Shown piece after piece: positions 3,327-8,770 of a stretch of DNA of 8,770 nucleotides (position 1 is the stretch's first letter; every line of letters begins with the position of its first letter). The position numbers and the translations under genes are program-made. This DNA comes from a bacterium (GTDB lineage: Bacteria > B130-G9). A model generated the notes under the pieces. The model was not told the origin of the DNA. It did no database searches and saw only the letters and a program-made list of their open reading frames with translations. The stretch is taken from contig JAGHCW010000237.1 in the NCBI GenBank assembly GCA_021160245.1, positions 1 to 8,770 on the forward strand, in the 5' to 3' direction.

Positions 3327-5932
3327 TCATCTACAAAGACGTAGTCATAGACCATCTTCGTCTGAGCTCGGTTGATATCCGCACACCACTGCTTCAGCCG
3401 CGCCATTTTCAGCGGAACGTTCAAATCCTCCTGCCCCTTTGTCTCGGCAATAATAACCCGTCCATCGGTTAGTTTGACGATAAAATCCGGGTAGTACTCG
3501 GAGATATCTCCATCCGCGTTTGCATAATCCAGCTTGAAGTGAATCGCCAGGAAGTTCTTCGCGTAGGATACAACGTCGTTGCATTGCTCCAGAAAATCCG
3601 CAAACTCAAGCTCGAAGTGGCTGTCGCCGATCAACCGGTTGAAGACCGATTTCCTCGGGATCATATAATCCTGATCCTTGACGATAAATGGTCGCGTTTG
3701 ACGCAGCTTGATCGTGTCGCGAATCTCCGCATCGCCCTTATCCTGTACGGTCAATTCGTTGATCGCTCGCTTGAAAGCCTCGATCACTGTTTTGGTCGCT
3801 GCAAGCTCGGACAGATTCCGCAGAGTATTTGGTGACTCAAGGTCCACGGTCCTACCGAAAAGAGCATCCCGCACAAAGCTCTTCACTTTGCCGTATAGCA
3901 TATCGTAGCCACTCACAAGTCGCAGTTCCTTCATCACCGTTCGGGCGAAATAGCCGATTACGCTCCGGTAATCCGCCAAGCCGGCGCTGTCCAGCACTGT
4001 CGTGTGGGTTATTTCTCCGGTGGTGATGTCCTTGAAGACGATCTCCCGCTGCTCCTCCTCGCTATACTGCTGATATGGCACCACCTGAAACACCATATTG
4101 TCGGTATCCAAATCCACCAGGTTTTTGTATTCTCGATAGACACGAGGCGTCAGCACCGGAATCTCGATGTCTAGTTTGTCGATGTCCTTGTTGACGTTTT
4201 CATTATCAATTTCGACCACCAGTGGTGTCTTCGGTCGTGTTCCCTCGCCCATGGCCTTGCGCTCCAGTTCGACACCTTCGGCCTGAATCGACTCGACGAA
4301 TTCCATGAATGCCTCGGTCCCGATAACGCTTACATATTCCTCCTCGCTGCCGGGATACATCTTGCGCAAGCCACGCCCCAGCGTCTGCTCTGGCAGGATG
4401 TTGCTCTTGGCCGAATACGCTCGTAAACCCACAATCGTTGTTACATTGCGCACGTCCCATCCCTCTTTCAGCATGATCACGGACACAATCGCCTTGTAGG
4501 GACTGTCGGAGCTGTCTATCTCATTAGCCTGCTTGCGCAGCGCTTCCAGCTCCTCCTTCTTCTTGCCGGATTGCGCCTCGGATATCTCACCATTGTTCTT
4601 TGTATGGATCATCAGCACGCCCCCCGCCAGTTCGGAATAGCAGTTCTCCAGATACTCCGCCACGTCGTCGCAGTTTCTGGTGTCATCCGTCATGACGAAT
4701 AGAATCGCCTTCTTGCCCATCTTTTGGTGCTCATCGTGGGCTTTGCGCCATTCGATCACACCGAGGTCGAGGTAATCCGCGTATTTCTCAGTAAACTTGG
4801 CGCTTTGTCTCTCTCGCAACTTCGCCCGGCTGGCCGCGTCAGGTAACACCGGATGCTTGACCACATTCTGCGAAATGGCCTCAACAAGCGGATAATCGGC
4901 AACCGTCTGCACGAAAATCGCCCCGTTGTTGTGCCTCGGCGTTGCCGTGAAATCCACCTGCAGGCTCAATTGCCCTCCTTTTTGTAGCAACCGGTTGTGG
5001 ATGTCCTCGATTGATTTGAACCACGCCAACTTCGACTCGTGGATATGGTGCGCCTCGTCATTGAGAACCATCAGTTCATCGATGTCCCGCACGATCATCC
5101 CCAGGTCCACCTTAGAATCCGTCGTCTTCCCCGTCGGACGCTTGCCGAGGAAGTAGTCCATCGTGTTCTCGTCGTCCGGTGAGGGTGGAATATCATCGCC
5201 CGCATAGACGCGGTGAATGTTGGTCAAGAAGATGTTGCCGGTGGAGCGCGTGATGCGCACTTCATCCTGCTTATGCAAGGTTAGCTGAAAGTCATTCCGC
5301 CAGTTGTGCCCGTCAAAGCCGTTGTCCGGCAGCACCGGGTCCTCATAGAATATCCGTAGGCCTTGAAAGTCTCTGTAGATACGGTCCAGCACAATGATAT
5401 TCGGCGTGATAACAAGAAAGTTGCGCGACAGCTCCGAATCTGGCTCATATAGCTTATGAAAAAAACTCCACGCGAGAGCAAGACTCATTACCTTCGTCTT
5501 GCCGCTCCCGGTTGCCATCTTTATCACATATCGCCGCCAGTTCTCATCGAACATGCTGGTCGCGATCGCGCCGGAACTGTCGAAACGCATAAGGTCATAT
5601 TTGTCTTTTGCGCCCACAACATCATAGAGATATACGATGGTCTCGATCGCTTCTTGTTGCGCAAAATAATACGTGAAACTGCCCATGATGCTGCCCACGC
5701 CAGGCAATAGATGAGGCGCCTTGAACCACCAGTTGAGGAGGCTCTTGCTCGTCTCGCTGGCGCCCGAATAGCCACTATCGCGAAACTCCTTCACCTTACG
5801 CCGCAATTGTGCCACAAGCGGCGGCATCAGCTTGCCCATGCTGGTCCGCAGCGTCTCATCTGCCGGAAACCAACGCATCTCTGGCGCCAAAATTGCGTGA
5901 GGTGAATCAGGAAAGTCTGGATGCAGCGCCAT
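3254..5932 (-). CDS. res: Type III-like restriction enzyme Res subunit (DEAH helicase plus PD-(D/E)XK nuclease)
   Basis: This 892-residue protein is the restriction subunit of the R-M system. In type III systems Res works in complex with Mod, using ATP-driven movement along DNA to sense unmodified sites and then cutting. Superfamily 2 helicase motifs appear in order: motif I ATGSGKT (140-146), motif II DEAH (292-295), motif III TAT (329-331), and motif VI 'QTLGRGLRK' (516-524). The C-terminus carries a nuclease signature: P815-D816, then E830-x-K832 in 'IIAETKG'. All key residues are present, and the length fits the family (roughly 900-1000). The ATG at 5930-5932 overlaps the hepT TAA by one base, with GGGAG 8 bases upstream, implying translational coupling. 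The oddity is its separation from mod by about 1.4 kb of other genes, when the pair is usually adjacent. Family assignment is secure; the exact type rests on its pairing with mod. Confidence 0.93.
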   Translation of the reverse strand: MALHPDFPDSPHAILAPEMRWFPADETLRTSMGKLMPPLVAQLRRKVKEFRDSGYSGASETSKSLLNWWFKAPHLLPGVGSIMGSFTYYFAQQEAIETIVYLYDVVGAKDKYDLMRFDSSGAIATSMFDENWRRYVIKMATGSGKTKVMSLALAWSFFHKLYEPDSELSRNFLVITPNIIVLDRIYRDFQGLRIFYEDPVLPDNGFDGHNWRNDFQLTLHKQDEVRITRSTGNIFLTNIHRVYAGDDIPPSPDDENTMDYFLGKRPTGKTTDSKVDLGMIVRDIDELMVLNDEAHHIHESKLAWFKSIEDIHNRLLQKGGQLSLQVDFTATPRHNNGAIFVQTVADYPLVEAISQNVVKHPVLPDAASRAKLRERQSAKFTEKYADYLDLGVIEWRKAHDEHQKMGKKAILFVMTDDTRNCDDVAEYLENCYSELAGGVLMIHTKNNGEISEAQSGKKKEELEALRKQANEIDSSDSPYKAIVSVIMLKEGWDVRNVTTIVGLRAYSAKSNILPEQTLGRGLRKMYPGSEEEYVSVIGTEAFMEFVESIQAEGVELERKAMGEGTRPKTPLVVEIDNENVNKDIDKLDIEIPVLTPRVYREYKNLVDLDTDNMVFQVVPYQQYSEEEQREIVFKDITTGEITHTTVLDSAGLADYRSVIGYFARTVMKELRLVSGYDMLYGKVKSFVRDALFGRTVDLESPNTLRNLSELAATKTVIEAFKRAINELTVQDKGDAEIRDTIKLRQTRPFIVKDQDYMIPRKSVFNRLIGDSHFELEFADFLEQCNDVVSYAKNFLAIHFKLDYANADGDISEYYPDFIVKLTDGRVIIAETKGQEDLNVPLKMARLKQWCADINRAQTKMVYDYVFVDEEGFKSYTPRSFASLLSGFGKYKS

Positions 5933-6303
5933 TACTCGAACTCCCGTATCATTCTGCGTATGGTCTCCAAGAGACGAGGCATCTTCCTCTTGCAGGTGAA
6001 GAAGACTGTTGTTGCATCGACGTTGGCATAGTGATGCGTGATGATGTCCCGCATACCTTTTGCGTTTTTCCAGTCCACATCGGGATAACGCGACAACAAC
6101 TCACCACCGGTTATTTTATCGAGATGCTTCAGCGATTCACCGACCACGATCAGCATCATACAGATTGCGTCCATTTTTTCTATGCCGGCGGGGCTGTCTG
6201 TGAAATCGGAGACCTGGCGTATGGCCTCGAAACGGGTTACGATCCTGGCCGCGGCCGTTTCCACTTGGCGTAAGACCTCCTGGCAAAGCTCCCTGTCAAG
6301 CAT
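5932..6303 (-). CDS. hepT: HepT-like HEPN ribonuclease toxin (DUF86)
   Basis: This 123-residue, largely helical protein belongs to the HepT/DUF86 HEPN family. These are ribonuclease toxins; characterised members cleave RNA, including tRNA, and are silenced by MntA, which adds AMP to the tyrosine of the active-site motif. The RX4HXY motif is intact: R85-DIIT-H90-H-Y92, in 'RDIITHHY'. The conserved mid-protein 'VVGESLKHLDK' is also typical. I set the start at the ATG at 6301-6303 because GGGGAGG lies 6 bases upstream; an ATG five codons earlier lacks an SD site. The gene overlaps mntA by 8 bases and the next gene, res, by one, so toxin, antitoxin and restriction enzyme are probably translated together. 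The intact motif suggests an active toxin, but that is inference. Confidence 0.9.
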   Translation of the reverse strand: MLDRELCQEVLRQVETAAARIVTRFEAIRQVSDFTDSPAGIEKMDAICMMLIVVGESLKHLDKITGGELLSRYPDVDWKNAKGMRDIITHHYANVDATTVFFTCKRKMPRLLETIRRMIREFE

Positions 6304-6586
6304 ACACTGCCTCCCCATTGATTCGCTCCTTCAGAAATCGATTCATGCCATCTGTGTAGGCGACGAGGTCCACGGGTTGGTGAAGCCTCTCCTCCAAATC
6401 GCTCTTGATGCCCGCGAGCATGAACAGGTCCGGCTCTGATATACGTACCACTATGTCCACGTCGCTATTGGCCCCGGCCTCTCCGCGCGCCACTGAACCG
6501 AAGAGACCTATAGCGAGGATTTCGTATCGCTTCGCTGCCTCCTTCTTGTAAACGCGCAGAACCTCAAGAATCTTCCTTATCTCCAT
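6296..6586 (-). CDS. mntA: MntA-like nucleotidyltransferase antitoxin
   Basis: This 96-residue protein is a minimal nucleotidyltransferase (MNT) of the MntA family, the antitoxin partner of HepT. Known members transfer AMP from ATP to the tyrosine of the HEPN RX4HXY motif and so neutralise the toxin. The GSX10DXD signature is exact: G30-S31, then D42-V-D44, in 'GLFGSVARGEAGANSDVDIV'. A third acidic residue, D73 in 'QPVDLV', completes the metal site. The start is the ATG at 6584-6586 because AGGAGG sits 7 bases upstream (6594-6599). A longer frame to 6655 adds 23 residues, but these overlap the dinD fragment and are not expected in the family. The antitoxin precedes and overlaps the toxin gene, as is usual. 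The gene lies 55 bases after the dinD fragment. Confidence 0.92.
   Translation of the reverse strand: MEIRKILEVLRVYKKEAAKRYEILAIGLFGSVARGEAGANSDVDIVVRISEPDLFMLAGIKSDLEERLHQPVDLVAYTDGMNRFLKERINGEAVYA
6310..6316 (-). promoter_or_regulatory. Ribosome binding site deciding the hepT start
   Basis: GGGGAGG on the - strand, inside the 3' end of mntA, lies 6 bases before the ATG at 6301-6303. It favours that ATG over the one at 6316-6318, which the SD itself abuts. Confidence 0.75.
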
Positions 6587-6593
6587 TGCCTTT

Positions 6594-6599
6594 CCTCCT
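6594..6599 (-). promoter_or_regulatory. Ribosome binding site deciding the mntA start
   Basis: A perfect AGGAGG on the - strand lies 7 bases before the ATG at 6584-6586. It indicates that the frame upstream of this ATG is not translated as part of MntA. Confidence 0.8.
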
Positions 6600-6641
6600 A
6601 CGAGCTTTCTAGCAACCGTCTCGAATTCGACACCCTCAAAT

Positions 6642-6917
6642 TCACGTCCATTCATTGACTGCCTGCTGGCCGCCCTTGCCGATCTCGATCATTTTGCTGA
6701 CGTCAGCAAAATGATCCTCAATGCGATGCCCGCTGTTGAAGCAAGCTGTCTTGGCCTTCTCGATCACGCCCTCGAAATTGCGGTATTGGGTGTAGTCCAA
6801 CACCTGGGCTAGAGCTCGGCTTTCCCAATAATCCATATCGTTGTCATTCGTGCGTTTGATTTGCTCGAAAGGCGAGATATGCCCTGCAGTCGCCTTCGTT
6901 ATCTCCTTCGCCATCAT
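6642..6917 (-). pseudogene. dinD: Truncated DinD (N-terminal BRO/ANT-like part only)
   Basis: The frame encodes 91 residues that match the N-terminus of DNA-damage-inducible protein D: 'SPFEQIKR', 'DYWESRALAQVLDYTQYRNF', 'VIEKAKTACFNSGH', then EDHFADVSKMIEIGKGG. DinD is about 270 residues; E. coli DinD is SOS-induced and acts on RecA filaments. Here the chain ends in 'QQAVNEWT' and a TGA just where family members continue with a conserved 'LSRYACYLI'-type stretch. I find no continuation in the other two frames before mntA, so the rest was deleted rather than frameshifted. The start at 6915-6917 overlaps the GxxExxY stop as ATGA, with AGGAGAG about 6 bases upstream; a second ATG follows at once. 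Translation signals are intact, so a short product may still be made. It contains a perfect 30-bp palindrome (6687-6716). Confidence 0.8.
6687..6716. repeat. Perfect 30-bp palindrome inside the dinD fragment
   Basis: The two 15-base halves are exact reverse complements with no spacer, centred on the GACGTC at 6699-6704 and bounded by GATC at each end. Flanking bases (C6686, C6717) break the symmetry. On the - strand it encodes DHFADVSKMI, a stretch I recall as conserved in DinD, so protein sequence may explain part of the symmetry. It could act as an operator, a cruciform or a recombination site. Confidence 0.97.
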
Positions 6918-7366
6918 CCCTCCTCTCCTGTTTTATCCGCAGATGTCACAGATTCACGCAGATTAAAGACGAACCTCTTGTATTGAAGGCTTCTAGCGCC
7001 GAAGTTGATGAGTAGGCCCCGCTTCAGACTAGAGGCCTTAAGGTAGTTGATAATCTGCGCCTCCTCGTTTCCTGAGATTCGCTGGAGAGCTTTCAGTTCC
7101 ACGATCACCGAGTCAAAGCAAATGAAATCAGCTTGATAAAACGCATTCAGAACATCCCCACGATAACACACAGACAGGCGTTTCTCCCGCTCAAAGGGAA
7201 TACTCCGAATCTGAAATTCCCGCTGCAGCGCTTCCTGATAGACCGCCTCCAAGAAGCCATTCCCCAATTCGCTGTGAACCGCCATCGCCGCGCCAATAAT
7301 CGCGTATGTTTGCGGGTCTCGGTCCCCAGAATAATCTGCGTTAATCTGTGTAATCTGCGGATTCAT
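6914..7366 (-). CDS. GxxExxY family protein (PD-(D/E)XK-like, role unknown)
   Basis: This 150-residue protein belongs to the GxxExxY family, named for the motif seen here as G37-FL-E40-AV-Y43 in '[13 protein letters not shown]'. A nuclease-like pattern follows: D80 in 'YQADFICFD', then E90-L-K92 in 'VIVELKAL', which fits a PD-(D/E)XK fold. No biochemical role is established to my knowledge. The start ATG at 7364-7366 overlaps the mod stop as ATGA, with GGAGG 7 bases upstream; the stop overlaps the dinD start in the same way. Its ends are unusual: residues 2-11 ([10 protein letters not shown]) and 135-144 ([10 protein letters not shown]) are encoded by inverted-repeat arms (7332-7363 and 6934-6965) that also occur inside mod. 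The native domain is therefore probably about residues 18-133, with repeat-derived tails. Confidence 0.88.
6934..6965. repeat. Dispersed inverted-repeat arm at the 3' end of the GxxExxY gene
   Basis: This 32-base arm, read on the + strand, begins TATCCGCAGAT and ends ACGCAGATTA. It matches the reverse complement of 7332-7363 at 28 of 32 positions, and matches the arm at 8240-8269 inside mod at 26 of 30. On the - strand it encodes [10 protein letters not shown]. Confidence 0.9.
7332..7363. repeat. Dispersed inverted-repeat arm at the 5' end of the GxxExxY gene
   Basis: This is the partner of the 6934-6965 arm, in inverted orientation. It ends three bases before the first base of the GxxExxY ATG and shares its last base with the mod stop codon. 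It matches the mod arm 8286-8314 at 25 of 28 aligned positions and on the - strand encodes [10 protein letters not shown]. Confidence 0.9.
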
Positions 7367-8770
7367 ACTGCTACCTCCACGATCGTCATCGTGTCAGTGC
7401 CGAAGATATCGACGACCTTCACGGCGAGCTTGCGGCGGCCCGGTCGGCATTCGTGGAAGACGCTCATAAGATCGAGCGAGCGGTCTTTCTTGGTGCGGAA
7501 GGACTGCCACTCGTTCTCGAATATGTAATCACCCGTCCAGCGCTCCTCCCATTCGCCTGTCTCCTCGCTCTTCACGCGGATGATCTCGCGCTTGCTCTCA
7601 TAGTCGAAATCAACCGCCCAGTAATCGATCCAGTCCGTCCACTTCTGGGTGAGCACCTCACGGCTGACTATCCCGTGCGAGTCCTTGCTCACCTTGATAA
7701 TCTGCCCCTTCTCGACAACGATCTTGCTCCTCTTGTCCTTCAGAGTGGCCTCGGCAGCCGCGATGGAATCCTGGGAATAGAAGACCGAGAAATCTGTCAG
7801 CTCGACGGCCACTTTGTTCCCCTTAACGTGCGGTTTGACCTCGATGAAGGAGACGTCGTGGAAGACGACTTGGTTCTTTTCCACCGCCCGCTTGTCGAAG
7901 ACATCGGCGGGGATGTACTTCGCGGCAATGTCAATCCCCTTGCCTCGCGCCTCGTCTAAAACGTTCGGGAAGAGGCCCATCTCGAACTCAAAGCCCAGAA
8001 TGTCAACGCGCGTGATGTGCTTCTTTCGACATTCGAGAATTATCTCCTCCACAAAGAGGCGCGTTACGGGCAGGTTGACCGGACCGACGGCTACTAACCG
8101 TCCAGATTTCTTGCCATTGAAGGTTTTGAAACCATCTGTCTTCTCGGCGCGGTAGGCCTTAAGGATGAGATCGAGGAAGGCGGCCTCCTTTTCCTCGAGA
8201 TTGCGCCGTTTGAGTTCATCTCTATCCGCAGATATTTCGTCCGCAGATTGCACAGATTTCCGCAGATTATTATTCCCTTTTTCTTCATCTGCGTTCATCT
8301 GCGTAATCTGTGGATCAACTCCTATATAATACTGCCGCTCGTACTTGCCCAAGTTCAATATCTCAAAGGCGCGATAATTCTCACCCTTCGCCTTCAACTG
8401 CCGCTGAACGCCGATCATCCGCTTCCGCGTCGTGTGGATGGCGAATTTCCCTAAATCGCTGACAATCCACTTCCGCCCCAACTTCTCCGCTACCGCCGCC
8501 GTCGTCCCAGAACCGCAGAAAAAGTCTGCAACCAGATCGCCCTCGTTGGAGGAGGCTTTGATGATTCGGCCAAGCATAGCTTCGGGTTTTTGGGTGGGAT
8601 AATTCACGCGCTCTCTAGCAGTGGGCGCCAATAATATATCTGGCCATAGTGAAGATGCTGCAACACCCGGACGTTCATCCAGGAAGTACTTTATGTAGGG
8701 CTGGCCGGTACTGCTGTAATACAACTTCCCTTCCCGGTCAAGATCTTCCATATTCTTCCTTGAAAATGCC
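7363..8770 (-). CDS. mod: Type III-like DNA methyltransferase Mod (5' end outside the window)
   Basis: The C-terminal 468 residues of a site-specific DNA-methyltransferase are present; the frame runs open through the window edge. Family members transfer a methyl group from S-adenosylmethionine to DNA, usually to adenine N6, and Mod also gives Res its sequence specificity. Beta-class motif order is visible: motif X 'YPTQKP' (8584-8601), then motif I 'DFFCGSGTT' (8500-8526), which binds the cofactor. The catalytic DPPY motif should lie in the missing N-terminal part. A long C-terminal region ends in '[19 protein letters not shown]', which looks complete. An inserted repeat (8240-8314) adds about 30 residues between 'RQYYIGV' and '[15 protein letters not shown]' without breaking the frame. 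The stop overlaps the next start (ATGA). The ATG at 8749-8751 is internal: the preceding codons read HFSRKN with no stop or SD. Confidence 0.92.
8240..8314. repeat. Palindromic dispersed element inserted in frame within mod
   Basis: Two arms, 8240-8269 and 8286-8314, are imperfect reverse complements (about 22 of 29 aligned positions) around a 16-base spacer. They are homologous to the arms flanking the GxxExxY gene. A further partial unit, TATCCGCAGAT, at 8223-8233 repeats the outer end of the left arm and could be a duplication or a degraded extra copy. On the - strand the element encodes [10 protein letters not shown], a short linker EEKGNN, and [10 protein letters not shown], the same reading phase as in the GxxExxY gene. 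It falls in a hydrophilic part of Mod between the catalytic region and the C-terminal domain. Confidence 0.9.

Follow-up and report, generated by a model that had tools for sequence, protein, structure and literature searches.

The window analysed here, a stretch of bacterial DNA of 8,770 nt that makes up a complete contig, carries a GxxExxY gene directly after mod, which encodes the DNA methyltransferase in a type III-like restriction-modification operon, and two pairs of inverted arms, one around the GxxExxY gene and one inside mod. The coordinates of the features are shown in Table 1. The ATG of the GxxExxY gene at 7366 overlaps the end of mod (7363). The region 5932-6917, between mod and res, contains a 91-aa fragment resembling the start of DinD/Bro-N and a pair consisting of a nucleotidyltransferase and a HepT-like gene, so that the type III operon holds several insertions between its core genes. 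Elsewhere, at three loci in three genomes of the window's phylum (L010, G000:C103; L013, G002:C125; L014, G003:C278), GxxExxY adjoins a DNA methyltransferase gene that is the same at all three. In two of them a cysteine desulfurase-like gene occupies the opposite side of GxxExxY, and in two extra arm pairs surround it; at these loci the GxxExxY gene is probably an inherited insertion. A general link of GxxExxY to methyltransferase neighbours was rejected, since the motif [DNS]PP[YFW] was found beside only 5 of 57 scored loci.

Table 1. Genes and repeat features of the window
Feature	Position	Strand	Remarks
GxxExxY gene, 150 aa	6914-7366	-	TIGR04256/PF13366; core domain 6968-7309
Arm 3' of GxxExxY gene	6934-6965	+	TATCCGCAGATGTCACAGATTCACGCAGATTA; three CRCAGATT units, 9/10-bp steps
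Arm 5' of GxxExxY gene	7332-7363	-	inverted relative to the arm at 6934-6965; outer edge touches mod stop codon
mod, N6/N4 DNA methyltransferase gene, type III-like restriction-modification operon	7363-8770	-	5' end cut by contig end
First arm of arm-only element in mod	8238-8271	+	arm match
Centre of arm-only element in mod, 15 bp	8272-8286	.	between arms
Second arm of arm-only element in mod	8287-8316	-	arm match

The arms of the GxxExxY gene, aligned over 6935-6965 and 7332-7362, are 31 nt each with a complementarity of 90% and enclose 366 nt, the distance given in the original prediction. The same prediction had matched them one for one and in the same orientation to the two arms in mod, which is borne out by identities of 83% (6931-6965 with 8235-8269) and 90% (7334-7362 with 8287-8315). 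A 28-bp arm core occurs three times in the window at up to three mismatches and was found in none of 200 shuffles; a reversed window-type pattern also gave 0 hits, and chance similarity of the arms is thereby ruled out. Arms of the window type start with [AG]TCC and are composed of three CRCAGATT units at steps of 9 or 10 bp. The window's own genome contains 21 two-unit arm hits against 0 for the reversed control, and both of its GxxExxY genes (on C28, the window contig, and on C103) are bracketed by arms. Hairpin-forming inverted arm pairs 40-150 bp apart are numerous in genomes of the window's phylum (likely Coatesbacteria), and the folding of the arm hairpins gave z-scores of -5.7 to -9.7.

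The arm-only element is inserted in mod without a shift of the reading frame and adds about 81 bp, or 27 codons; exactly these 27 residues are missing in the Mods of Sinorhizobium medicae pSMED02 and of an Aminobacter plasmid, which are 78-80% identical. Its arms (8240-8271 and 8287-8315) are separated by 15 nt, not by the 16 bp claimed earlier, and the element folds as a hairpin with a z-score of about -6. The element around the GxxExxY gene begins at the stop codon of mod, where the outer edge of the arm touches the end of mod at 7363, and in the Aminobacter plasmid the next gene follows mod directly, with no GxxExxY gene between them.

Membership of the predicted protein in the GxxExxY family was established with TIGR04256 (142.5 bits, cut-off 35) and PF13366 (132.6 bits, cut-off 22), the profile being covered from position 3 to 116 of 116. 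The family domain comprises residues 20-133 and leaves the arm-coded ends outside. It had been proposed that the element supplies both ends of the protein; the arms do code for the first and last residues of the reading frame, but these ends lie outside the domain and are predicted to be disordered (residues 9-14 and 139-150, pLDDT below 50 in the AlphaFold model), which makes a role as functional parts of the protein unlikely. The AlphaFold model has a pLDDT of 85.6 and a PD-(D/E)XK fold. Its best structural match in the PDB is the Cas4-family protein SSO0001 (4ic1, Z 9.4), followed by lambda exonuclease and RecB-type nucleases, while a sequence search of the PDB gave no significant relative. 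Residues D80, E90 and K92 are invariant in 73 GxxExxY homologues. The nuclease-like D-ExK pattern noticed earlier is thus that of a Cas4/RecB-like fold, and by predicted fold and conserved D...ExK the protein is placed in the PD-(D/E)XK nuclease superfamily, with DNA cleavage as its predicted activity. Most measurable pairs of GxxExxY genes have a dN/dS of 0.05-0.14, which shows that the protein is under purifying selection.

Profile searches of the element detected PDDEXK_3/GxxExxY only and no known transposase or recombinase. The window protein has no match among the PADLOC models, and a known anti-phage defence gene was therefore rejected as its identity; a GxxExxY protein of a sister class matches the Cas4 models of PADLOC weakly (E 8e-5). 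GxxExxY genes are rare on plasmids (8 of 72,556 records), are absent from phage records by tblastn and have no match in PHROGs. Plasmid or phage cargo is ruled out by these data, and the distribution is unlike that of ordinary transposons or defence cargo.

The flanks of GxxExxY genes were compared at 80 loci from many phyla, which were collected with a core-domain alignment without the arm-coded ends. As the hits most similar to the window were retained, the sample is tilted to the window's clade. For each locus the upstream 200 bp were locally aligned to the reverse complement of the downstream 200 bp, with a score of at least 14 counted as an inverted repeat. Such repeats were found at 69 of the 80 loci and at 3 of 400 matched control positions of the same loci; the expectation that arms flank GxxExxY genes more often than other positions is thereby confirmed. 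Window-type CRCAGATT arms lie within 300 bp of the gene at 26 of the 80 loci, and the remaining loci mostly carry variants of the same three-unit grammar, such as CACGAATT, CACGAAGG, CGCGAATGAA, CACAAATT and CGCGGATT. Across loci the arms consist of three tandem units of about 9-11 bp beginning with [AG]TCCRC, and the arm types differ among loci (CAGATT, CGAATT, CGAAGG, CAGAGG and others). At one locus (L016/L017, G002:C146:110885-111236) the GxxExxY gene is split into two frames and flanked by CACAGAG-type repeats, not by CAGATT arms. The 5' neighbour is co-oriented at 63 of 74 GxxExxY loci; among control genes the figure is 341 of 500 (p 0.0025). The median distance from the stop codon of this neighbour to the start of the first arm is 9 nt. 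The proposed insertion exactly at the end of mod fits this wider pattern, and a preference for sites directly behind an upstream gene appears to be general.

Presence and absence were compared among 57 genomes of the Methylophaga family, 13 of which have a GxxExxY gene. A class-matched arm was found within 220 bp on at least one side of 13 of 14 GxxExxY hits in this family. Window-type arms occur in 11 of the 13 genomes with the gene and in 3 of the 44 without it, so that arm copies, which the original prediction had suggested counting, are common with the gene and nearly absent from relatives that lack it (Fisher p 1.4e-7 with three genomes with simple 9-bp arrays set aside, 4e-6 if they are kept). 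The three genomes, which have no GxxExxY gene, carry short arrays of the exact 9-mer CCACAGATT (G060:C11:91997-92058, G072:C12:401860-401885 and G091:C112:53200-53243), and these arrays look like simple tandem repeats rather than arms. The two GxxExxY-positive genomes without window-type arms contain genes of a sister class with CACAGAGG arms. In G039, G043, G049 and G053 window-type arms are kept and a gene of the window class was not found.

One intergenic site between two convergent genes, occupied in genome G004, was examined with flank-joined queries in 24 Methylophaga genomes, and 13 copies were read or compared. The site is empty in G037, G040, G041, G056, G057 and G058. In G004, G044 and G048 it is occupied by a window-class gene with CRCAGAT arms, the gene of G044 having one internal stop codon. 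In G039, G049, G053 and G054 the same site holds a sister-class gene (...LGPGLLE..YEECL...) with CACAGAGG arms, and both arm kinds are present there in G039, nested. Arm-only sites in Methylophaga likewise occur in filled and empty states, and at one of them the arms are of the CAGAT type or the CACAGAGG type, depending on the species. Syntenic loci with and without the segment, as anticipated, therefore exist for gene-bearing and arm-only elements alike. The target duplications that were to be sought at the junctions did not appear: neither a target-site duplication nor a clean junction rule was seen in the aligned flanks, which are diverged and AT-rich. The GxxExxY gene and its own arm type act as a unit, which is present or absent at the same sites and is shared between phyla.

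The agreement of arm type with protein class was measured on a tree of 102 GxxExxY cores, in which many forks are unresolved owing to the short protein, and compared with 500 label shuffles. The two central letters of the unit change 11 times on the tree (shuffle mean 23.5, minimum 20) and the unit spacing 19 times (29.9 in shuffles). Within one genome, GxxExxY paralogues bear different arms, each according to its own subfamily. Agreement at the GxxExxY gene itself could result from linkage alone, since the arms there lie next to the gene; arm copies were therefore also counted genome-wide. Twelve genomes with a CAGAT-class gene contain 472 CAGAT and 52 CGAA/CTAA-type matches; in 14 genomes with a CGAA-class gene the figures are 279 CGAA/CTAA-type and 91 CAGAT matches, 66 of the latter in the genome of L119 (G033, Phycisphaerales; CGAA-class gene), where a second GxxExxY class may be present. 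The arm class found genome-wide differs with the resident GxxExxY class at p 7e-5 (Mann-Whitney). Dispersed arms are hairpin-forming doublets, found mainly where a gene of the same class is resident or possibly once was.

These counts bear on the very improbable explanation that GxxExxY and its flanks are merely transferred as a block by homologous recombination and that the dispersed arms are unrelated. Cross-phylum relatives with similar arms do imply horizontal transfer, but arms at unlinked positions agree in type with the resident class and depend on the presence of the gene, and the reversed-pattern controls for the window type are empty, so that transfer of a linked block is largely contradicted. 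The main alternative, also rather unlikely, is that the arms are REP-like sequences and owe their movement to a different enzyme, such as a RAYT/Y1 transposase encoded elsewhere, while GxxExxY is cargo trapped between two arms in the manner of a composite transposon. No classical transposase is encoded in the element, arms greatly outnumber genes in some genomes, and REP-RAYT systems provide a precedent for short palindromes moved in trans (Nunvar et al. 2010, PMC2817692; Bertels and Rainey 2011, PMC3116915), all of which would fit such an arrangement. It is weakened by the class pairing, because cargo is not expected to specify the sequence of the arms: arm type tracks the class of GxxExxY not only across phyla but also within single genomes and at one shared site, and close relatives without GxxExxY are nearly free of arms.

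The genome of Oligosphaera ethanolica (G006, NZ_JAUSVL010000001.1; L129-L148) has at least 147 strict arms, mostly single, and one GxxExxY gene. Its arms often form tandem arrays of 100-160 bp that adjoin a second three-unit motif (CGCGAAGG x3). They lie mostly on the minus strand in the first 2 Mb and mostly on the plus strand at 2.7-3.9 Mb, a strong bias that roughly follows the sign of the GC skew.

A 190-bp element of Methylophaga sp. OBS4 (L186) has intact arms around the start (..YTIIGAAMTVH..) and the end (..LQHKYLFLN) of a GxxExxY gene, and the alignment of its centre with the full gene outscores all of 300 shuffles. It is clearly an internal-deletion derivative of a gene-bearing parent, as the definition of a MITE demands. 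In L190 an end-like QYKRLVF remnant is suggestive of the same origin at the 3' end only, the whole centre scoring no better than shuffles, and signs of a deletion derivative were not seen in L181, L182, L184, L187 and L189. The pairing of a full element with a MITE-like deletion derivative, originally proposed for the two arm pairs of the window, is thus realised in OBS4, whereas the 15-bp centre in mod is too short to tell.

The derivative also bears on a regulatory function, in which the arms would be putative binding sites, GxxExxY or the hairpins of its mRNA would regulate its own and neighbouring genes, and spread would be due to ordinary recombination and selection and not to the nuclease activity of the protein. 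The strong hairpins directly beside the gene, the position shortly behind the stop codon of a gene in the same orientation (63 of 74 loci, median 9 nt) and a unit repeat close to one helical turn, a spacing known from multi-subunit binding sites, are what such a function would predict. It is nevertheless distinctly unlikely in view of syntenic sites that are cleanly empty or filled, arm-only copies included, of the internal-deletion derivative, of the copy in frame inside mod and of the invariant catalytic residues.

The segment 6934-7363 is probably a complete small element, in which two inverted three-unit arms enclose one gene for a Cas4/RecB-like nuclease, with the copy in mod (8238-8316) as its arm-only, non-autonomous relative and with nuclease-driven spread similar to that of REPIN-RAYT systems. 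Several observations speak against this reading: no target-site duplication was seen in the diverged flanks, the element encodes no known transposase or recombinase, window-type arms persist in four genomes in which no window-class gene was found, G033 contains 66 arms of the other class, and the arms of Oligosphaera, at least 147, are mostly single and accompany one gene. We infer that the GxxExxY protein recognises the arms of its own class. Their perfect or near-perfect pairing makes a hairpin or cruciform the probable form that is recognised, and the nuclease would cut DNA at the arms. Host repair or replication would then place a copy of the element in another intergenic site, in most cases directly behind a stop codon. 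The scheme would resemble REPIN-RAYT, except that a nuclease takes the role of the tyrosine transposase. With slightly better than even confidence, this can be extended to a broad class of mobile elements in many phyla, in which a stand-alone Cas4/RecB-like nuclease propagates three-unit hairpin arms and each lineage reads its own unit sequence and spacing.

The joint change of GxxExxY and arms across many phyla suggests an undescribed kind of mobile DNA element; no earlier description of the pairing was found in the open-access journal papers searched, and one may exist elsewhere. No function has been assigned to GxxExxY, a large annotated family with a placeholder name, and the pairing offers it a testable role. 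The pairing also accounts for very common short palindromic repeats in many bacterial phyla, and the element accounts for odd protein ends and in-frame inserts in annotated genes. If the nuclease moves the arms, it would allow DNA to move without any known transposase, and the naturally occurring pairs of nuclease and arm, with their varied letters and spacing, would be a system for studying how small nucleases read DNA.

Among known systems, MITEs are likewise short and non-autonomous, with inverted ends, and some derive, like L186, from a gene-bearing parent by internal deletion, but the parent described here has no DDE transposase. No target-site duplication was visible, though the aligned flanks are diverged. 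Rickettsia palindromic elements are palindromes inserted in frame within genes and resemble in this respect the copy in the window's mod; their sequence is not known to be related to the arms, and they are not known to have a partner nuclease. Cas4/RecB-family PD-(D/E)XK nucleases share the predicted fold, the catalytic D...ExK and the following Q with GxxExxY, which differs as a stand-alone 115-aa domain in an element without cas genes or helicase; sequence similarity to the Cas4 models is weak and confined to a sister class.

The closest parallel is the REPIN-RAYT system. RAYT genes are always flanked by inverted REPs with which they co-evolve, and REP abundance correlates with the cognate gene (Nunvar et al. 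2010, PMC2817692). GxxExxY similarly forms a single-gene unit between two inverted repeats, at most loci if not all, the same repeats are scattered as inverted, hairpin-folding doublets, gene and repeats co-evolve with repeat abundance correlating with the presence of the cognate gene, and gene copies per genome are usually few. In contrast to RAYTs, the enzyme is a predicted PD-(D/E)XK nuclease and not a Y1/HUH tyrosine transposase, the arms are built of three tandem units beginning with [AG]TCCRC and lack a GTAG/CGTC head, and the system is found across many phyla. With the same three properties, an unrelated enzyme and differently built repeats, the GxxExxY element would work like REPIN-RAYT systems without being a member of them.
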